Below, in pieces: positions 8,048 through 62,929 of a stretch of 64,000 bases of DNA. A model generated the notes under the pieces. The model had not been told where the DNA came from and did no database searches. It was given only the letters and a program-made list of their open reading frames with translations. Origin of the DNA: Flavobacterium aquidurense (GTDB taxonomy: Bacteria; Bacteroidota; Bacteroidia; Flavobacteriales; Flavobacteriaceae); NCBI GenBank assembly GCA_900107365.1, contig FNPS01000005.1:310001-374000 (forward strand), written 5' to 3'. Each line of letters begins with the position of its first letter. Positions within the stretch are counted from its first letter, which is position 1. Position numbers and translations under genes: made by a program.

Positions 8048-8250
8048 GTTATTTCGCGGAGATTCACAAAGAAAAAGCGCCAAGATTCGCGGAGAGTTTT
8101 AAGAAAAAGCCAATTAATCGCGCAAAGACGCAAAGGCGCAAAGAAAAATAAAACTTTGCGTCTTTGCGTCTTTGCGCGATTTTTTAATGAAATCAAATAA
8201 AAAGCTTAGCGTATCTCTGCGAAAACCTTCGTGTATCTCTGTGAAACAAC
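8048..8250. repeat. Nested class A palindrome between metG and the CDGSH gene
   Basis: An inner hairpin has 27-base arms differing at one position (8117-8143 and 8154-8180; ATCGCGCAAAGACGCAAAG core) around a ten-base A-rich loop. It is wrapped by an outer pair, 8048-8071 and 8227-8250, matching at 19 of 24 positions and containing the class A word TTTCACAGAGATnCAC. Further matching words (AAGATTCGC / GCGTATCT) lie between them. The whole 203-bp unit is non-coding, between divergent genes. Confidence 0.85.
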
Positions 8251-13860: not shown

Positions 13861-13965
13861 AAGGTTTTACCACCGAGATACACTAAGATTTTACACAGAG
13901 ATACACAAAGGTTTTTTAAAATAACTTTGTGTATCTCTGTGCTGTTTTTGTGAATCTCTGCGAAA
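13861..13965. repeat. Class A palindrome, first tandem copy
   Basis: A perfect 17-bp inverted repeat, CACAGAGATACACAAAG (13894-13910) with its complement (13925-13941). It is nested in a weaker outer pair built from the same words (ACCGAGATACACTAAG and GTGAATCTCTGCG). It begins 18 bases after the stop of the DMP19-like gene. Confidence 0.85.
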
Positions 13966-19745: not shown

Positions 19746-21017
19746 ATGTTACAAATCGCATTTATTAGAGAGAATCAGGAGAAAGTAATCAAGGCTTTAG
19801 CAAAACGAAATATCGATGCTAAAAGCGTTGTTGAAGAAGTGGTGCAATTAGACGAAAATCGTCGTGCTACACAAGTAGAGTTAGACAATACTTTAGCTGA
19901 ATCTAATAAATTATCCAAAGATATAGGGGAATTGATGAAAGCAGGAGAGAAATCTAAAGCCGCAATCTTAAAAGAAAAAACTGTTTCCTTAAAAGAAAAA
20001 AGTAAAGAATTGGGCGAAAAAGCAGAAGCTTTGGCAACCGAATTGACGAATAAATTATACACATTACCAAACCTTCCGGCTGATATTGTTCCTGAAGGAA
20101 AAACTCCGGATGACAATTTGAATGTTTTCGAGGAAGGTGATATTCCGGTTTTGCATGAAGGTGCACAACCTCACTGGGAATTGGTAAAAAAATACGATAT
20201 CATCGATTTTGAATTGGGTGTGAAAATTACAGGTGCAGGTTTTCCGGTTTACAAAGGAAAAGGTGCTCGTTTGCAACGTGCCTTAATCAATTATTTCTTA
20301 GATAAAAATACAGCTGCAGGATATAATGAAGTTCAGGTACCGCATTTGGTAAACGAAGCTTCAGGTTACGGAACAGGACAATTGCCTGACAAAGAAGGGC
20401 AAATGTATCATTCAACAGTTGATGATTTATATTTGATTCCAACGGCTGAGGTTCCGGTTACGAATTTATACCGCGATGTTATTTTAAACGAAAGCGAATT
20501 GCCAGTTTTAAACACCGCTTACACACCATGTTTCCGTCGTGAAGCAGGTTCTTACGGAGCGCATGTTCGCGGATTGAATCGTTTGCACCAATTTGATAAA
20601 GTAGAAATTGTACGTATCGAACATCCGGATAATTCTTATGCAGCATTGGACGGAATGGTGGAACACGTAAAAGATATCTTAAAAGAATTGAAATTACCAT
20701 ACCGCGTTTTACGTTTGTGTGGTGGCGATATGGGTTTCACATCGGCTTTGACGTATGATTTTGAAGTGTTTTCTACAGCGCAGGATCGTTGGTTAGAAAT
20801 TAGTTCAGTTTCTAATTTTGAGACTTTCCAGGCCAATCGTTTGAAATTACGTTTCAAAGACAAAGATGGAAAAAACCAATTGGCACATACGCTTAACGGA
20901 AGTTCATTGGCTTTGCCAAGAGTGTTGGCTGGAATTTTAGAAAATTACCAAACACCGGAAGGAATCGTAATTCCAGAAGTTTTACGTCCTTACTGTGGAT
21001 TTGATATTATAAACTAA
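19746..21017 (+). CDS. serS: Seryl-tRNA synthetase
   Basis: 423 aa, typical for class II SerRS. I chose ATG 19746 because the protein then starts MLQIAFIRENQEKVIKALAK, as in the family, and the promoter motif lies just upstream. The N-terminal ~100 residues form the long antiparallel coiled coil that contacts the tRNA arm. The catalytic core has motif 2 (TPCFRREAGSYGAHVRGLNRLHQFDKVE) and motif 3 near the end (LNGSSLALPRVLAGILE). It heads a series of plus-strand genes (lgt, TPR protein, DUF4286, rsmA, mgtE) whose spacers are all palindromic repeats. Confidence 0.98.
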   Translation: MLQIAFIRENQEKVIKALAKRNIDAKSVVEEVVQLDENRRATQVELDNTLAESNKLSKDIGELMKAGEKSKAAILKEKTVSLKEKSKELGEKAEALATELTNKLYTLPNLPADIVPEGKTPDDNLNVFEEGDIPVLHEGAQPHWELVKKYDIIDFELGVKITGAGFPVYKGKGARLQRALINYFLDKNTAAGYNEVQVPHLVNEASGYGTGQLPDKEGQMYHSTVDDLYLIPTAEVPVTNLYRDVILNESELPVLNTAYTPCFRREAGSYGAHVRGLNRLHQFDKVEIVRIEHPDNSYAALDGMVEHVKDILKELKLPYRVLRLCGGDMGFTSALTYDFEVFSTAQDRWLEISSVSNFETFQANRLKLRFKDKDGKNQLAHTLNGSSLALPRVLAGILENYQTPEGIVIPEVLRPYCGFDIIN

Positions 21018-21020
21018 TTT

Positions 21021-21106
21021 AGTTTACAGTTTACAGTCTCAGTTTACAGCCTCAGCACAAAGCTGAAAACTGAGACTGCGACTGAAAACTGCGACTGAAA
21101 ACTGGA
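21021..21106. repeat. Class D palindrome between serS and lgt
   Basis: CAGTCTCAGTTTACAGC (21034-21050) pairs with GCTGAAAACTGAGACTG (21062-21078) at 16 of 17 positions. Extra copies of GCGACTGAAAACT follow and end at the lgt ATG. The stem sits inside the probable operon. Confidence 0.85.
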
Positions 21107-21109
21107 ATT

Positions 21110-21934
21110 ATGGCGAATGGAATTTTGTACTGGAATGTGGATCCTGTAATAGTTATGATAACGGATAGTTTTCCTTTAAAATATTACGGAGCTCTTTTTG
21201 CCTCTGGACTCTTGCTTGGATATTATATTGTTCGCAATATTTATAAAAAAGAGCAGCTGTCATTAGACAACCTTGATAGCCTGCTGGTTTATGTAATTGT
21301 GGGTACAATTTTAGGAGCCCGATTGGGACATTGCTTTTTTTATGAACCTGATTATTTTTTTAAACATCCCATAGAAATACTTTTGCCTATTCAGAAAATT
21401 GCCGGAGTTTATAAGTTTGTTGGTTTTCAGGGTTTAGCCAGTCATGGTGGTACAATCGGTGTTTTAATTGCTATCGTTTTATATTGCAAAAAATACAAAG
21501 TCAATTTTTTAGGACTGCTGGACAGAATGGCAATTGGAGTTCCGGTTACAGGAGCTTTTATCAGATTTGGGAATTTTATGAATTCTGAAATCTACGGAAA
21601 ACCGACAAATGGCAATTGGGGAGTTGTTTTTCAACGAGATGATATGATCCCGAGGCATCCGACACAATTGTATGAAGCATTTTCGTATTTGCTGATATTT
21701 GCCCTTTTATTTTGGATGTATAAATCAGAAAAAATAAAACAAGCCAAAGGATTATTATTTGGGACTTTCCTGACATTGTTGTTTTTGGCCCGTTTTTTAA
21801 TCGAATTTTTTAAGGAAAACCAGGAAAGTTTTGAGAACAATATGTTGATTAATATGGGACAAATTTTAAGTATTCCTTTTATTTTAATTGGCTTAACTTT
21901 GATTGTCTGGAAATCGAATGTTGAAATTAAATAA
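21110..21934 (+). CDS. lgt: Prolipoprotein diacylglyceryl transferase
   Basis: 274 aa with about seven membrane helices. Lgt transfers diacylglycerol from phosphatidylglycerol to the lipobox Cys of prolipoproteins in the inner membrane. The signature GNFMNSEIYG is exact around residues 151-160, and SHGG with its conserved His lies in the preceding loop. RHPTQLYEA also matches. The window's many lipoproteins are its expected substrates. The ATG immediately follows the class D palindrome that fills the gap from serS. Confidence 0.96.
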   Translation: MANGILYWNVDPVIVMITDSFPLKYYGALFASGLLLGYYIVRNIYKKEQLSLDNLDSLLVYVIVGTILGARLGHCFFYEPDYFFKHPIEILLPIQKIAGVYKFVGFQGLASHGGTIGVLIAIVLYCKKYKVNFLGLLDRMAIGVPVTGAFIRFGNFMNSEIYGKPTNGNWGVVFQRDDMIPRHPTQLYEAFSYLLIFALLFWMYKSEKIKQAKGLLFGTFLTLLFLARFLIEFFKENQESFENNMLINMGQILSIPFILIGLTLIVWKSNVEIK

Positions 21935-21941
21935 TAGTTCG

Positions 21942-22009
21942 CAGTCACAGTCTCAGTTTACAGTAGATATTACGCTGAAAACTGATACTGAAAACTGAGA
22001 CTAAGACTG
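21942..22009. repeat. Class D palindrome between lgt and the TPR gene
   Basis: CAGTCACAGTCTCAGTTTAC... (21942-21963) pairs with 21988-22009 at 19 of 22 positions. Same vocabulary as the previous spacer, different arrangement. Confidence 0.85.
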
Positions 22010-22026
22010 ACTAAAAGAACTGAAAT

Positions 22027-23808
22027 ATGAAAAACATCTTTATCTATATCGTTTTGTTCTGGTCGACACTCCTTTTTTCTCAAAATGAGCAACTGGCGCA
22101 ATATTACTACGATAAAGGTGATTTCGAAAAAGCAAAAATCAGTTATGAGGAGCTTTTAAACAGTGCACCATCCAATACCCAATACTTTTTAAGAACGGTA
22201 GATTGTTATCAGCAATTGCAGCAATTTGCTTTGGCTGAAAAAATGATTCAGGATCGTTATAATAAATACAAACAGGGTGTTTTTTTAGTAGAATTGGGAT
22301 ATAATTTCCAACTTCAGAAAAATGATGCAAAAGCCAAAAATTATTACGATCAGGCTATAGAGAAAATCAAAACGAATGCTAATGATGTTTACGGAATCGG
22401 AAATTCTTTCGAGAAAAAAGTATTGTTAGAATATGCTTTGAAAGCCTATCAAACGGCAATGCAGGTGCAGCCGAATTACAATTTTAATTTCCAAATCGGA
22501 ATGTTGTACGGACAGTTGGGTAAGACTGATCAAATGATTGATCTTTTGTTAACAGAATCCTATAATAATCCACAGAATGCTAATTTAATTCAGACGCAAC
22601 TATCCCGTTTCATGAATGGTGAGACAGATAATACGGCTTTTAAAGATGCGATGCGAAAAGCCTTAATCCTGAAAACACAAAAAGATCAGGATGTATTCTG
22701 GAATCACTATTTAAGTTGGTTTTATGTACAGCAAAAGGAATTTGGAAAAGCGTTTATCCAGGAAAAAGCGATTTACAAGCGCGAACCCGAATCACTTTCG
22801 AGTATTGTCAATTTGAGTCAGTTTGCATTAAATGAAGATGACACGGAAACAGCTTCTGAGATTTTGAACTTTATCCTTCTTAATACCAAAGATTTAGATT
22901 TATTGGTGCAGACCAATTACTATTTAATGGAAATTAAAATTGATAAAGCACAGGAAAAAGACTATCCAATAATTGACGCTGAGTTACAACAATTGCTTAC
23001 AACCTATGAAATAACTCCTTTTACCTTATCTTTGCAATTAATTCAGGCGCATTTTAAGGCATTTAATTTAAAAAAGCCAGAAGAGGGTATCGCAATTGTT
23101 AAACGAGCTTTAGAGCTTAATTTGAATGATTATCAGGAAGCGGATGCTAAGATGGAGTTGGGGGATATTTTGCTTTTGCAGGAAAAGTTCAATCAGGCGT
23201 TGATTTATTATTCGCAGATTCAATTGGATTTAAAGAATGATGTTGTAGCGCACGAAGCAAGTTTGAAAGCAGCCAAAACAAGTTATTTTAAAACTGATTT
23301 TGAATGGGCTTTAAAACAATTTAAAGAATTAAAATCGGCCAACACACAGTTGATAGCAAATGATGCACTGGAATATTTTTTATTGATAAATGACAACACC
23401 GTTGCCGATTCGACACAAACGGCATTAAAGCAATTTGCAAAAGGTGATTTTCTACTTTATCAAAATAAAAAACCAGAAGCGATTGCACAGTTTCAAAACA
23501 TTCTGAAAACCTATAAAGGACAGGAAATCGAAGCTGTAACAATGTTGCGTTTAGGTAAAATTTATGAAAGTCTGAAGGATTATAATTCGGCTTTAAGCCA
23601 ATACCAGCAGATCATTGACCATCATAGCGACGGAATTTATGTTGATGAAGCTTTGTTTTTTTCGGCAGAAATTTACAACGACGAATTAAAAGATACAGAA
23701 AAGGCAAAACCTTTGTATGAAAAGGTAATTTTTAACCATCAGGATAGTATTTACTTTGTTGATGCGAGAAAAAAATACCGCGAGTTGAGAGGAGACAAGA
23801 ATTTATAA
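22027..23808 (+). CDS. Secreted TPR-repeat protein
   Basis: 593 aa with a signal peptide (IFIYIVLFWSTLLFSQNE). The whole mature part is alpha-helical tetratricopeptide repeats: YYDKGDFEKAKISYEELLN near the start, AYQTAMQVQPNYNFNFQIGMLYGQLG in the middle and MLRLGKIYESLKDYNSALSQYQQII near the end, each with the W/L-G-Y-A-like spacing. TPR proteins scaffold protein complexes. Periplasmic members in Bacteroidota often support envelope assembly, but no partner is visible here. It sits in the serS-lgt series between two different palindromic spacers. Confidence 0.88.
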   Translation: MKNIFIYIVLFWSTLLFSQNEQLAQYYYDKGDFEKAKISYEELLNSAPSNTQYFLRTVDCYQQLQQFALAEKMIQDRYNKYKQGVFLVELGYNFQLQKNDAKAKNYYDQAIEKIKTNANDVYGIGNSFEKKVLLEYALKAYQTAMQVQPNYNFNFQIGMLYGQLGKTDQMIDLLLTESYNNPQNANLIQTQLSRFMNGETDNTAFKDAMRKALILKTQKDQDVFWNHYLSWFYVQQKEFGKAFIQEKAIYKREPESLSSIVNLSQFALNEDDTETASEILNFILLNTKDLDLLVQTNYYLMEIKIDKAQEKDYPIIDAELQQLLTTYEITPFTLSLQLIQAHFKAFNLKKPEEGIAIVKRALELNLNDYQEADAKMELGDILLLQEKFNQALIYYSQIQLDLKNDVVAHEASLKAAKTSYFKTDFEWALKQFKELKSANTQLIANDALEYFLLINDNTVADSTQTALKQFAKGDFLLYQNKKPEAIAQFQNILKTYKGQEIEAVTMLRLGKIYESLKDYNSALSQYQQIIDHHSDGIYVDEALFFSAEIYNDELKDTEKAKPLYEKVIFNHQDSIYFVDARKKYRELRGDKNL

Positions 23809-23818
23809 TTCAGATTTC

Positions 23819-23878
23819 AGACTTTAGATTTTAGATTTTTATTGGAATCTAAAATCTAAAATCTAAAATCTAAAATCA
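23819..23878. repeat. Class C palindrome between the TPR and DUF4286 genes
   Basis: TTTAGATTTTAGATTT (23823-23838) faces its complement AAATCTAAAATCTAAA (23852-23867). The right arm continues with two further copies of the 7-base word. Confidence 0.8.
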
Positions 23879-23884
23879 AGAAAA

Positions 23885-24196
23885 ATGATTATTTACAACG
23901 TTACAACCAATATACACGAAAGCGTTCATGACCAATGGTTAAAGTGGATGCAGGAAAAACACATACCGGAAATTCTGGCAACAGAAAAATTTTCGTCTGC
24001 AAGAATTGTGAGAGTTTTAATTGAAGAAGAAATGGGCGGAATTACGTATTCTGTTCAATATGTTACCGATAGCAAAGAAACTTTAGAAAAGTATTATTTG
24101 GAAGAACAACCGAAATTTGATAGAGAAGCTTTAGAGTTATTCGCAGATAAAATGCTTTCTTTCAGAACCGAATTAGAAGTTATTTCGGAACATTAA
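23885..24196 (+). CDS. DUF4286 family protein
   Basis: 103 aa, soluble. The sequence opens MIIYNVTTNIHESVHDQWLKWM and continues IPEILATEKFSSARIVRVL, then YYLEEQPKFDREALELFADKML, which is the pattern of the small DUF4286 family of Bacteroidota. It is predicted to be a ferredoxin-like alpha/beta fold, as in dimeric barrel proteins; this is inference. The gene lies directly upstream of rsmA, separated by a perfect 23-bp inverted repeat. Function is unknown. Confidence 0.8.
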   Translation: MIIYNVTTNIHESVHDQWLKWMQEKHIPEILATEKFSSARIVRVLIEEEMGGITYSVQYVTDSKETLEKYYLEEQPKFDREALELFADKMLSFRTELEVISEH

Positions 24197-24207
24197 AAAA
24201 AGATTTT

Positions 24208-24276
24208 TAGATTATTAGACTTCTTAGATTTTTAGACTTACTTAAAATCTAACAATCTAAGAAGTCTAATAATCTA
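24208..24276. repeat. Class E perfect palindrome before rsmA
   Basis: The arms 24208-24230 and 24254-24276 are exact 23-base complements (TAGATTATTAGACTTCTTAG core). The spacer between DUF4286 and rsmA is almost entirely this element. No T-run follows, so it is a poor terminator. Confidence 0.9.
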
Positions 24277-24293
24277 GCAATCTAAAAAAGAAA

Positions 24294-25079
24294 ATGGAAA
24301 AAGTAAAAGCCAAAAAACATTTAGGACAACACTTCTTAAAAGATGAAAGTATCGCAAAGGCAATCGCAGATACCTTAAGCTTAAAGGGATACGATGAGGT
24401 TTTAGAAATAGGACCGGGGATGGGTGTGTTGACTAAGTATTTGCTTGACAAACCAATTAATACGCACGTAATCGAAATTGACACCGAATCTGTGACGTAT
24501 TTGGGTGAAAATTATCCGAAATTAAAAGATCAGATTATCTCTCAGGATTTTCTGAAATACAATATTAATGAGGTTTACAAAGACAAACAATTCGCTATAA
24601 TCGGGAACTTCCCTTATAATATTTCGACTCAGATCGTTTTCAGGACTTTAGAGTTTAGAGACCAGATTCCTGAGTTTTCGGGAATGTTTCAAAAGGAAGT
24701 TGCCGAACGTATTTGCGAGAAAAAAGGCTCTAAAGCTTACGGAATCTTATCCGTATTAGCACAGGCTTTCTATATTACTGAGTACTTGTTTACTGTTGAC
24801 GAAAATGTTTTTATTCCTCCGCCCAAGGTGAAATCGGGTGTGATGAAAATGACCCGAAAGGAAGATTATAGTCTTCCATGTGGTGAAAAGTTGTTCTTTA
24901 CGGTAGTGAAAACTGCTTTTCAGCAAAGACGAAAAACATTACGTAACAGTTTGAAAACATTAAATTTAACTGATGATTTGCGATTAGACACTATCTTTGA
25001 TAAACGTCCCGAGCAACTTAGTGTAGAAGAATTTATTGAACTGACTCAAAAAATAGAAGCCGATGGAGTTCAAAGTTAG
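24294..25079 (+). CDS. rsmA: 16S rRNA dimethyladenosine transferase
   Basis: 261 aa, full length for RsmA/KsgA, which dimethylates two adjacent adenosines in helix 45 of 16S rRNA during 30S maturation. The start [20 protein letters not shown] is typical. SAM motif I is [11 protein letters not shown] and the catalytic N-x-P-Y motif is NFPYNIS. The C-terminal helical domain includes [13 protein letters not shown]. The end overlaps the start of mgtE by 17 bases in another frame, showing tight coupling. Confidence 0.97.
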
Positions 25080-26412
25080 CAAAGATTTAATCCACCAATT
25101 AGAAGAGCACATTGTTAATAAAAACGACAAGGAACTTGAAGTTTTATTAAACGATTTGCACCACGCCGATATTGCCGAAATACTAGATGAACTGGATTTC
25201 GACGAAGCAACCTATATTTTCAGGGTTTTAGATAGCGATAAAACAGCAGAAATTCTTCTTGAACTAGAAGATGATTTGCGTGAAAACATCTTAAGCCGAC
25301 TTTCACCTAAAGAAATTGCCGAAGAGCTTGATGAGCTTGAAACCAATGACGCGGCAGATATTATCGGGGAACTTTCGCAGGAAATTAAAGCAGAGGTAAT
25401 CTCGGAATTAAATGATGTTGAACACGCGAAAGATATTGTCGAATTATTACGCTACGATGAAAATTCGGCGGGTGGTTTGATGGGAAAAGAGTTGGTAAAA
25501 GTCAATGAAAACTGGAATGTACTAACATGCGTTAAAGAAATGCGTATTCAGGCGGAAAACGTGTCAAGAGTGCATTCAATCTATGTGGTTGATGATGAAA
25601 ACCGATTAAAAGGAAGATTATCATTAAAAGATTTATTGACGACTTCTACCAAAACTCAGATTGGTGATATCTATATCAGAAAACTAAATTTTGTAAACGT
25701 TGATACCGAAGATGTTGAGGTAGCTCGGATCATGCAAAAATACGACTTAGAAGCTATTCCGGTTGTGGATGAACTGGGTCGCCTGGTGGGAAGAATTACC
25801 ATTGATGATATATTAGATGTAATCAAGGACGAAGCCGATAAAGATTACCAGTTAGCGGCGGGTATTACACAAGACGTTGAATCAAACGATAGTGTTTTGG
25901 AGTTAACCAAAGCGCGTTTACCATGGCTTTTGATTGGAATGGTGATCGAAATTGTGGCTTCTTTTGTTTTGAAAGGAAATGAAGATATATTCAAAATCCA
26001 TTCTACTCTAATCATTTTTGTACCATTGCTTTCGGCAACAGCAGGAAATATTGGGGTTCAGGCCTCGGCAATTGTCGTACAAGGGTTGGCGAACGGAACT
26101 TTAAAAGAATTTAGCCGAGGATATTTCAGTAAAGAAATTACCGTTTCTATGATTTCAGGAACTATTATTTCATTGCTATTATTAGGATATCATTCGATTA
26201 TGTACCAACAATATCTGGTGGGTTTTGCGATTTCGATTTCGATGATTGTAGTGATTTTGTTCGCTGCGACTTTGGGAACTCTGGTGCCGCTTTTCCTTCA
26301 TAAAAATAAGATTGATCCCGCTATTGCTACAGGTCCGTTTATCACGACAACCAATGACGTTTTTGGAATTATGCTCTACTTTGGAGTAGCCAAATTGATT
26401 CTTGGGTTTTAG
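25063..26412 (+). CDS. mgtE: Magnesium transporter MgtE
   Basis: 449 aa, the standard MgtE length. Order: an N-terminal superhelical domain with [19 protein letters not shown], two CBS domains (about 125-250, with [21 protein letters not shown] and [23 protein letters not shown]), then five membrane helices. The pore helices include [14 protein letters not shown] and the conserved acidic [19 protein letters not shown]. It is a magnesium-gated Mg2+ channel in the inner membrane; the cytoplasmic domains sense Mg2+. The start lies inside the rsmA end. Confidence 0.96.
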
Positions 26413-54336: not shown

Positions 54337-54339
54337 ATC

Positions 54340-54402
54340 TAGTTTTCAGTATTCAGTCCCAGTATTCAGTACTGAGACTTTTAACTGAGACTGTAAACTA
54401 AA
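54340..54402. repeat. Class D palindrome between atpD and atpC
   Basis: TAGTTTTCAGTATTCAGTCC faces ACTGAGACTGTAAACTA words (imperfect arms 54340-54370 and 54371-54402). Same vocabulary as the serS-lgt spacers. No T-run follows. Confidence 0.75.
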
Positions 54403-54407
54403 AAAGT

Positions 54408-59268: not shown

Positions 59269-59360
59269 ATTACACGGAGATTCGCAAAGGAGACGCAGAG
59301 ATTCACAAAACTATTTATTCTTTGTGTTGCTTGTGTCTCCTTTGCGAATCTCTGCGAAAT
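59269..59360. repeat. Class A palindrome before bioD
   Basis: CGGAGATTCGCAAAGGAGAC (59275-59294) and its complement (59335-59354) match at 19 of 20 positions. The right arm ends 8 bases before the bioD ATG (59369). It faces the class A element after bioF across the 2.5-kb segment. Confidence 0.9.
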
Positions 59361-59992: not shown

Positions 59993-60215
59993 GAGAATAG
60001 ATTATAGAAGCAAGAAACAAGAAACAAGAAGAAAGAAACAAGAAGAAAGAAACAAGAAGAAAGATGAAAGAGGATTAAATAGGAATTGCTGGTGAGAAAA
60101 TACAGTATTGAAATAAGAGAATAGAAACAAGAATTGCAGCTTAGCAAATAGACTTTCTTATCTTTGCGGAAACTATAGAGTTTAGTCTTTCTTCTTGACT
60201 CTATAATCTATTCTC
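59993..60215. repeat. Class G inverted repeat around the bioA promoter
   Basis: GAGAATAGATTATAGA (59993-60008) recurs exactly inverted at 60200-60215. The left side then expands into AAACAAGAAGAAAG units, three in tandem (about 60022-60064), while the right side has one CTTTCTTCTTG. The -7 element of bioA lies inside. Confidence 0.85.
60159..60166 (+). promoter_or_regulatory. bioA promoter -7 element
   Basis: TATCTTTG matches TAnnTTTG, with TTG at 60134-60136 as -33 (22 bases away), 55 bases before the ATG at 60222. Confidence 0.6.
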
Positions 60216-62891: not shown

Positions 62892-62929
62892 TTAGATTTT
62901 AGATTTTAGATTTTAGATTTTAGATTTTA
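62892..62929. repeat. Class C tandem heptamer
   Basis: The 7-base word TTAGATT/TTTTAGA repeated about five times directly after the ketoacyl synthase stop, same vocabulary as 23819-23878 but without the opposite arm. Confidence 0.8.

Follow-up and report, generated by a model that had tools for sequence, protein, structure and literature searches.

The gaps between serS, lgt, a gene for a TPR-repeat protein, a DUF4286 gene and rsmA of Flavobacterium aquidurense are filled by palindromes, and the question raised by this locus is what keeps such elements at operon junctions. The locus lies in a stretch of 64,000 nucleotides, here called the window (assembly GCA_900107365.1, contig FNPS01000005.1, positions 310,001 to 374,000; genome G000, contig C18 in our numbering). 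A preliminary description of the window, made from its sequence, had read the four gaps as different words used for the same position. Comparison with related genomes leads us to a reading to which we give an even chance: the hairpin in the serS–lgt gap, together with that in the atpD–atpC gap of the same window, is kept for its structure while alleles are exchanged between species, and the elements in the other three gaps are tolerated dispersed repeats.

Hairpins at the serS–lgt junction

A gene was scored as followed by a hairpin when an ungapped score of at least 10 was reached within 120 nt after its stop codon; identical gaps or rows were counted once, and two loci (L065 and L068) were excluded as their names are not Flavobacterium. 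By this test, 69 of 84 Flavobacterium loci (82%) bear a hairpin after serS, compared with 6% of shuffled sequences. In the same genomes the neighbouring genes are followed by one far less often, with 10/35 loci after lgt, 33/86 after the TPR gene, 14/86 after the DUF4286 gene and 8/49 after mgtE (16–38%; shuffles 0–6%). Where lgt does not lie behind serS, the hairpin was still detected in 38 of 50 loci (160-nt spans), and beyond the genus, in other Flavobacteriaceae and their neighbours, the rate after serS was 11/28. Metagenome-assembled genome records named Klebsiella, Rhizobium, Sphingobacterium and Nitrotoga (L042, L043, L053, L059, L063) also bear a Flavobacterium-like locus; these bins look misnamed or contaminated.

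The hairpin has at least eight unrelated sequences, grouped here as families D (30 of the 84 loci), R (25), M (13), V (5), J (2), P (2), F (1) and A (1), with five loci unassigned. Labels were set by regular expression, by hand for L029, L063, L146, L159 and L165, and by hand to R for the divergent variant L153 (the letters M, V, J, P, Y, H, X, Z, K, A, B, F and I were coined in this analysis). The 84-row tree has long branches and some weak parts; on it, the 79 named rows require at least 24 family changes. The figure of 24 is also obtained with the 68 named rows scoring at least 10, and the 55 R and D rows alone need at least 15. With unassigned loci counted as a state, 29 changes were found over the 84 rows, compared with 41–49 in ten label shuffles, and the family is therefore partly inherited. 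Presence of a hairpin (75/84, M rows taken as present) changes seven times on the tree.

Among the 35 relatives with lgt behind serS (window included), 20 carry R, two of them recognised by eye, and 15 carry D. The nearest relative, G154, has many ordinary gaps near-unchanged, yet its serS–lgt gap holds an unrelated R hairpin (AACCTAACAGG...). The proposal of different words at one position thus stands for serS–lgt, given the retention rate and the number of family changes; it does not extend to lgt–TPR, TPR–DUF4286 and DUF4286–rsmA, where the elements are facultative.

Family M is a native single-copy hairpin and not a repeat. It was detected in 24 of 101 genomes and never more than once in each (reversed control 6/101); 15 of the 24 copies lie 1.8–2.9 kb upstream of the DUF4286 gene, as expected for the end of serS, four lie elsewhere with two mismatches each, and five were not placed.

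The atpD–atpC junction

Comparison of orthologous co-directional gaps with four partner genomes revealed a second junction, unnamed in the preliminary description, at which different words occupy the same position. The orthologues of the window's gap (54337–54407) hold D in G114 and G075 and an unrelated hairpin in G154 and G053. Thirty loci from the closest relatives gave 28 distinct gaps (L297 and L308 were dropped as identical), of which 27 score at least 8, 23 at least 10 and 20 at least 12; the corresponding rates in shuffles were 35%, 5.7% and 0%, and the sole gap failing a score of 8 is 15 nt long. At least six word families form the hairpins of these 28 gaps. The family hardly follows the species tree, with 11 changes in 22 rows compared with 10–14 in ten shuffles.

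On average, gaps of the same family are 0.92 identical (44 pairs) and those of different families 0.52 (187 pairs), while the 3' ends of atpD are 0.94 identical in both sets. In the pair G096–G159, for instance, identity was 0.99 in the gap, 0.925 in atpD and 0.82 in rsmA, and in the pair G154–G077 it was 0.99, 0.923 and 0.85, respectively. Distant pairs share the whole gap including TCAAGC..GCTTGATAAA, a stretch found solely there in G154 (1.24 Mb searched). Transfer of flanks along with the gap was not seen, as identity in the nearest 50 nt is hardly raised in same-family over different-family pairs (0.908 vs 0.892 on one side, 0.931 vs 0.927 on the other). Shared alleles could have arisen through recombination over very short tracts or through selection acting on the individual alleles; the former seems to us the likelier.

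Window palindromes and their dispersed families

All four palindromes were confirmed between the genes of this series, which are read in one direction from serS to mgtE; rsmA and mgtE overlap by 17 nt, so that no gap exists behind rsmA. From serS to rsmA the gaps measure 92, 92, 76 and 97 nt, and the arms of the palindromes filling them consist of 6–8-nt words. Predicted RNA folds reach −35.5 kcal/mol (z −7.3) for serS–lgt (21018–21109), −31.2 kcal/mol (z −5.8) for lgt–TPR (21935–22026), −24.7 kcal/mol (z −6.6) for TPR–DUF4286 (23809–23884) and −39.6 kcal/mol (z −9.5) for DUF4286–rsmA (24197–24293), each with 0/200 shuffles as good. The predicted stems span nucleotides 1–82 of 92, 1–88 of 92, 4–63 of 76 and 5–87 of 97, and stop 10, 4, 13 and 10 nt short of the next ATG. 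The 23-bp perfect arm reported for the last gap was correct on reading the sequence. Four independent word classes are ruled out: the first two gaps belong to family D (words CTGAAAA, CTGAGA, CTGCGA and TTTACAG) and the last two share the word TTAGATT, so that the window holds two families rather than four different words.

Table 1 Genes and hairpins of the two junction regions in the window
Feature	Position	Strand	Remarks
serS (seryl-tRNA synthetase)	19746..21017	+	Pfam tRNA-synt_2b and Seryl_tRNA_N; start per gene caller; 3' end bears position-conserved hairpin
Family D hairpin, serS–lgt gap	21018..21099	+	Relatives have R, native M or others here
lgt (prolipoprotein diacylglyceryl transferase)	21110..21934	+	Pfam LGT
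Family D hairpin, lgt–TPR gap	21935..22022	+	Facultative; D words in 20/35 relatives
TPR-repeat protein	22027..23808	+	Pfam TPR families
TTAGATT-family hairpin (class C of the preliminary description), TPR–DUF4286 gap	23812..23871	+	Near-identical in G154
DUF4286 protein	23885..24196	+	Pfam PF14114
TTAGATT-family hairpin (class E of the preliminary description, 23-bp perfect arm), DUF4286–rsmA gap	24201..24283	+	
rsmA	24294..25079	+	Pfam RrnaAD
mgtE	25063-26412	+	Pfam MgtE
Family D hairpin, atpD–atpC gap (54337-54407)	54343..54404	+	Second junction with exchanged hairpins

Elsewhere in the window, the sole Rfam match above the gathering score is a Flavo-1 RNA (RF01705; 12887–12989, 52 bits), and further word palindromes or arrays lie at 8116–8181, 13871–13941, 59269–59360, 60006–60071 and 62892–62929 (CGCAAAG, CACAGAGATACAC, AGAAACAAGAAGAA, TTAGATT). 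Long palindromes, GTCATTGCGAGGAACGAAGCAATC and CTTCGACTTCGCTCAGTCTGAC, which we take to occur in distant phyla as well, were observed at G000:C18:160694–161249 and 256520–256694.

The run of four palindromic gaps is real and only mildly unusual. A run of four with an inverted-repeat score of at least 15 arose in 81 of 5000 shuffles of contig C18 (173/5000 counting only gaps of at least 30 nt), with 32/5000 and 55/5000 for a score of at least 16 and 992/5000 and 1790/5000 for at least 12, the run having been chosen after the fact out of a 5.44-Mb genome. Palindromes are common in gaps: on C18 and 60 kb of C8, inverted repeats scoring at least 12 were found in 60/270 co-directional, 28/40 convergent and 6/38 divergent gaps, compared with 6/382, 2/74 and 4/74 in shuffled gaps of at least 30 nt. 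The sampled part of the genome holds many palindrome families, whose words are often 6–9 nt long.

The elements of the lgt–TPR, TPR–DUF4286 and DUF4286–rsmA gaps are best read as copies of dispersed REP-like (repetitive extragenic palindrome) families whose presence behind stop codons is tolerated, with no role specific to the junction in most cases. In relatives (gaps above 300 nt set aside), D words occur in 20 of 35 lgt–TPR gaps, window included, and a hairpin scoring at least 10 in 11 of the 35. The 86 TPR–DUF4286 gaps hold TTAGATT (20), CTTAGAAC (23), TTAACCGG (9), H alone (2) or none of these (32), and the 60 DUF4286–rsmA gaps hold TTAGATT (10), CTTTGTG-type words (13) or none (37). G154 has a 57-nt lgt–TPR gap without D, the same element as the window in TPR–DUF4286 and a diverged TTAGATT member in DUF4286–rsmA. 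On a 35-row tree, at least 9, 9, 10 and 12 state changes were counted from serS–lgt to DUF4286–rsmA (in the latter, CTTTGTG words and no words together form the third state). Several relatives have one-sided word arrays or none in the three gaps, and it follows from these arrays and the facultative elements that the functional hairpins proposed in the preliminary description are supported at one gap of the four, with atpD–atpC added as a further place in the window. The DUF4286–rsmA gap of several relatives (for example L020, L025, L132 and L136) also contains a coding insert of about 0.3–0.9 kb, present or absent among close relatives, one part of which resembles a small nucleotidyltransferase by eye.

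The right-arm word of D has 54 exact matches in G000 (reversed control 0) and was found in 22 of 199 genomes of the bacterial family, G000 included, the others holding far fewer copies (1–8). Eight tandem D hairpin units of ~75 nt lie behind one gene at G000:C27:347956–348550 (L004), some of them with matched word changes in both arms. Placement was read from 45 loci among the matches listed (30 of the 54 right-arm matches and all 15 of a second set, with the duplicate row of the C27 array counted once). The 30 listed sites of the own genome comprise 23 co-directional, six convergent and one divergent gap and no open reading frame (ORF). An upstream stop codon lies within 15 nt of 25 of the 29 listed sites having one, and the next start codon within 15 nt of only 5 of 23, at distances of up to 561 nt, which rules out start-codon anchoring of D. 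The closeness of the right arm to the start codon, as described for the window, is thus correct for its four stems and not general.

A wider survey of six families (D, K, A, B, F and I; 1.24 Mb from five genomes) gave 121 elements in co-directional gaps, 36 in convergent and 12 in divergent gaps and four in ORFs, corresponding to densities per kb of 0.91 in convergent, 0.66 in co-directional and 0.23 in divergent gaps and about 0.004 in coding DNA. Where the slack was at least 100 nt, the stop was the nearer codon for 78 elements and the start for 53. The densities do not include families H, R and TTAGATT, whose words are unspecific (ORF clusters: H 68/114, R 13/23; reversed control 31, 50 and 13, a reversed-word control being invalid for TTAGATT). 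D, then, is an element of gene 3' flanks, and all six families taken together shun coding DNA and are thinnest in divergent gaps. The R palindrome is present in 67 of 199 genomes, with up to 27 copies. Counts of word orientation relative to transcription in the own gaps gave no clear overall bias that would account for the asymmetry of TTTACAG and CTGAAAA.

Proposed mechanism and competing explanations

From the likeness to known systems we infer an RNA-level role of the hairpins in Flavobacterium. REP-like dispersed families would settle behind stop codons and supply hairpins for serS–lgt and atpD–atpC. A useful intercistronic hairpin, starting roughly 5–40 nt after the upstream stop, would be retained and its sequence would remain replaceable, alleles probably passing between species by short-tract homologous recombination anchored in the conserved coding flanks. 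Once a polycistronic mRNA has been cut within the gap or beyond it, the hairpin may shield the upstream cistron as a 3' barrier; alternatively, it may cause weak attenuation. A terminator would fit less well than a barrier, given that D has no T-rich tail, and so would a protein-binding word, given that the words are not the same. As the outcome, serS would exceed lgt, and atpD (beta, three per F1) would exceed atpC (epsilon, one per F1). F1 contains beta and epsilon subunits in a ratio of 3:1, and at both junctions the upstream product is plausibly needed in excess. More tentatively, the selected junctions could be structural cassettes, which need a hairpin of whatever sequence and whose whole gap alleles, built from different dispersed families, are exchanged between species with edges at the stop and start codons.

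The closest known counterparts are the stabilising hairpins of selective RNA processing and stabilisation (SRPS), which lie directly behind an upstream gene inside an operon. In malE–malF of E. coli (PMC5927463) and in the clostridial cip-cel operon of C. cellulolyticum (PMC4423207), such hairpins shield the upstream segment of the processed mRNA and set subunit ratios; protective structures in E. coli generally lie within coding sequence (PMC5927463). A stable, position-conserved hairpin at the 3' end of the upstream cistron was found at serS and atpD and not at the other three gaps. The Flavobacterium hairpin differs in that it comes from several unrelated repeat families interchanging between species, and is known here from sequence. 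In the literature covered, mainly outside subscription journals, we recognised no description of these Flavobacterium families or of hairpin exchange at a fixed junction, and a search of PMC2267715 for Bacteroidetes names gave no hit.

Several observations weigh against retention for structure and exchange of alleles. The 120-nt span of the hairpin test may reach into the next gene, and nine of 84 serS loci fail the test, three of them bulged D elements with folds near −43 kcal/mol and six seemingly without a hairpin. On average, distant same-family serS–lgt gaps are 0.58–0.68 alike (single pairs reach 0.97), below the 0.78–0.82 of the first 300 nt of lgt. In the R stem, nine of 11 core pairs form in all 25 rows, and both sides have changed in five of these nine. 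Since the motif used to pick the R rows favours paired arms and R variants are dispersed, these changes are weak evidence of compensation; exchange for a different copy would explain them as well as point compensation does. Termination cannot be the function common to all families, because D and V have no T-rich tail. The atpD–atpC junction was picked because it was seen swapped, so that its rate is no unbiased estimate, and gap edges as sharp as those found there are not what homologous recombination usually leaves; the gap sequence itself may instead be under selection. Finally, a hotspot of palindrome insertion could mimic retention of the hairpin; owing to the nested palindromes and the general correlation between orthologous gaps described below, a functionless hotspot stays the main rival.

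According to this rival, selfish or neutral REP-like elements use stop-adjacent spots and existing hairpins as insertion hotspots, so that hairpin replaces hairpin without function. We regard it as less likely than not, though it fares best among the competitors. Both D and R are dispersed, with D absent from ORFs among the matches listed, as such elements would be. At serS, the R hairpin of two separate clades (L025, L148) contains in its loop a CCCGAAGCTTCGGG-type palindrome adjoining the CCTAACAG arm, and this composite was found at 13 places in 7 of 199 genomes, that of L148 included. Moreover, presence of hairpins is correlated between orthologous gaps in general (score of at least 10, four partners): the partner has one in 32 of 48 cases where the own gap has one, and in 17 of 64 where it has not. 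However, retention at serS lies far above that at the neighbouring genes of the same genomes, and the native M hairpin is retained there though it is not a repeat.

It is improbable that the hairpins are transcription terminators or attenuators, with downstream genes served by their own promoters. M and R at serS do resemble intrinsic terminators, a stem with a T-rich tail (6.1 and 5.9 T, respectively, in the 10 nt after the hairpin), but the D hairpins, as in the window, and V have no such tail (2.2 and 2.0 T), and these two families account for 35 of the 84 serS loci. A simple terminator scan, which requires G+C pairs, hit none of the four window hairpins and gave one hit, inside lgt, with 3.7 expected. 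The promoter consensus TTG-N17-23-TANNTTTG matched 0/37, 0/37 and 0/88 loci in serS–lgt, lgt–TPR and TPR–DUF4286 and 9/62 in DUF4286–rsmA, in a scan so insensitive that it detects a promoter in no more than 9 of the 37 divergent gaps of G000. Separate promoters with full terminators in each gap, or hairpins missing from all close relatives, had been named beforehand as outcomes that would count against function; promoters were not found in three of the four gaps by this weak scan, and the gaps of relatives do carry hairpins.

Mobilisation as REPs by a REP-associated Y1 transposase (RAYT) is very improbable. The elements recall REPs as short, many-copy intergenic palindromes near stop codons, clearly so for D and R, and the genome has 11 Y1_Tnp matches. 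GTAG or CGTC tetranucleotides mark the foot of REP stems, and GTAG REPs often provide the TAG stop (PMC3733652); likewise, L132 and L145 have TAGTTTACAG as the lgt stop and D element, and near variants occur in L025, L143 and L157. The Flavobacterium elements nevertheless differ in their arms of 6–9-nt tandem words and longer stems, with no GTAG or CGTC tag at the foot of any of the four window stems and no RAYT nearby in the own genome. There, about 1.9 kb around each of the 11 Y1_Tnp matches contained no R word, 0–2 D, 0–2 TTAGATT and 0–3 CTTTGCG-type words, and at the ten Y1 loci read the flanks hold other palindromes; RAYT mobilisation is thus unsupported in this genome. Some of these Y1 genes (L015–L018) have nearby palindromes of their own, GCGCGAGCGTCCCGCTCGTGC and AGTCCCGAAGGCTTTCGGGATT, perhaps classical REP systems. 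A REP survey reported thousands of candidates in two Flavobacterium genomes (PMC12306157).

That the word arrays act in translation, as leaders or binding sites for proteins ahead of start codons, is the least probable reading: some relatives do have one-sided octamer arrays just before the start (CTTAGAAC before DUF4286, CTTTGTG before rsmA), but D elements follow stops, with the next start at times hundreds of nt away, and elements are frequent in convergent gaps, which have no start codon. The TAACTGA heptamer direct repeats of Beggiatoaceae, Cyanobacteria and five Bacteroidetes, described as having no predicted structure and lying mostly just before start codons (PMC4679880), are similar as short tandem words in intergenic DNA; the Flavobacterium elements, unlike these, are mostly hairpins, D lies behind stop codons, and no single heptamer in direct repeat just before starts was found.

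The serS–lgt junction offers a natural experiment on selection between operon genes, in which a hairpin is kept at 69 of 84 loci through at least 24 switches of family. If hairpins of all families prove equally effective, selection would be acting on structure rather than sequence, and this would account for selfish palindromes becoming useful. Scans for conserved sequence would miss such elements. At atpD–atpC, a junction of known subunit ratio, the function of REP-like repeats becomes testable. Should the selected junctions prove to be cassettes, the dispersed repeats of Flavobacterium would form a shared stock of interchangeable parts for RNA stability, through which ratios such as that between beta and epsilon in ATP synthase are tuned.

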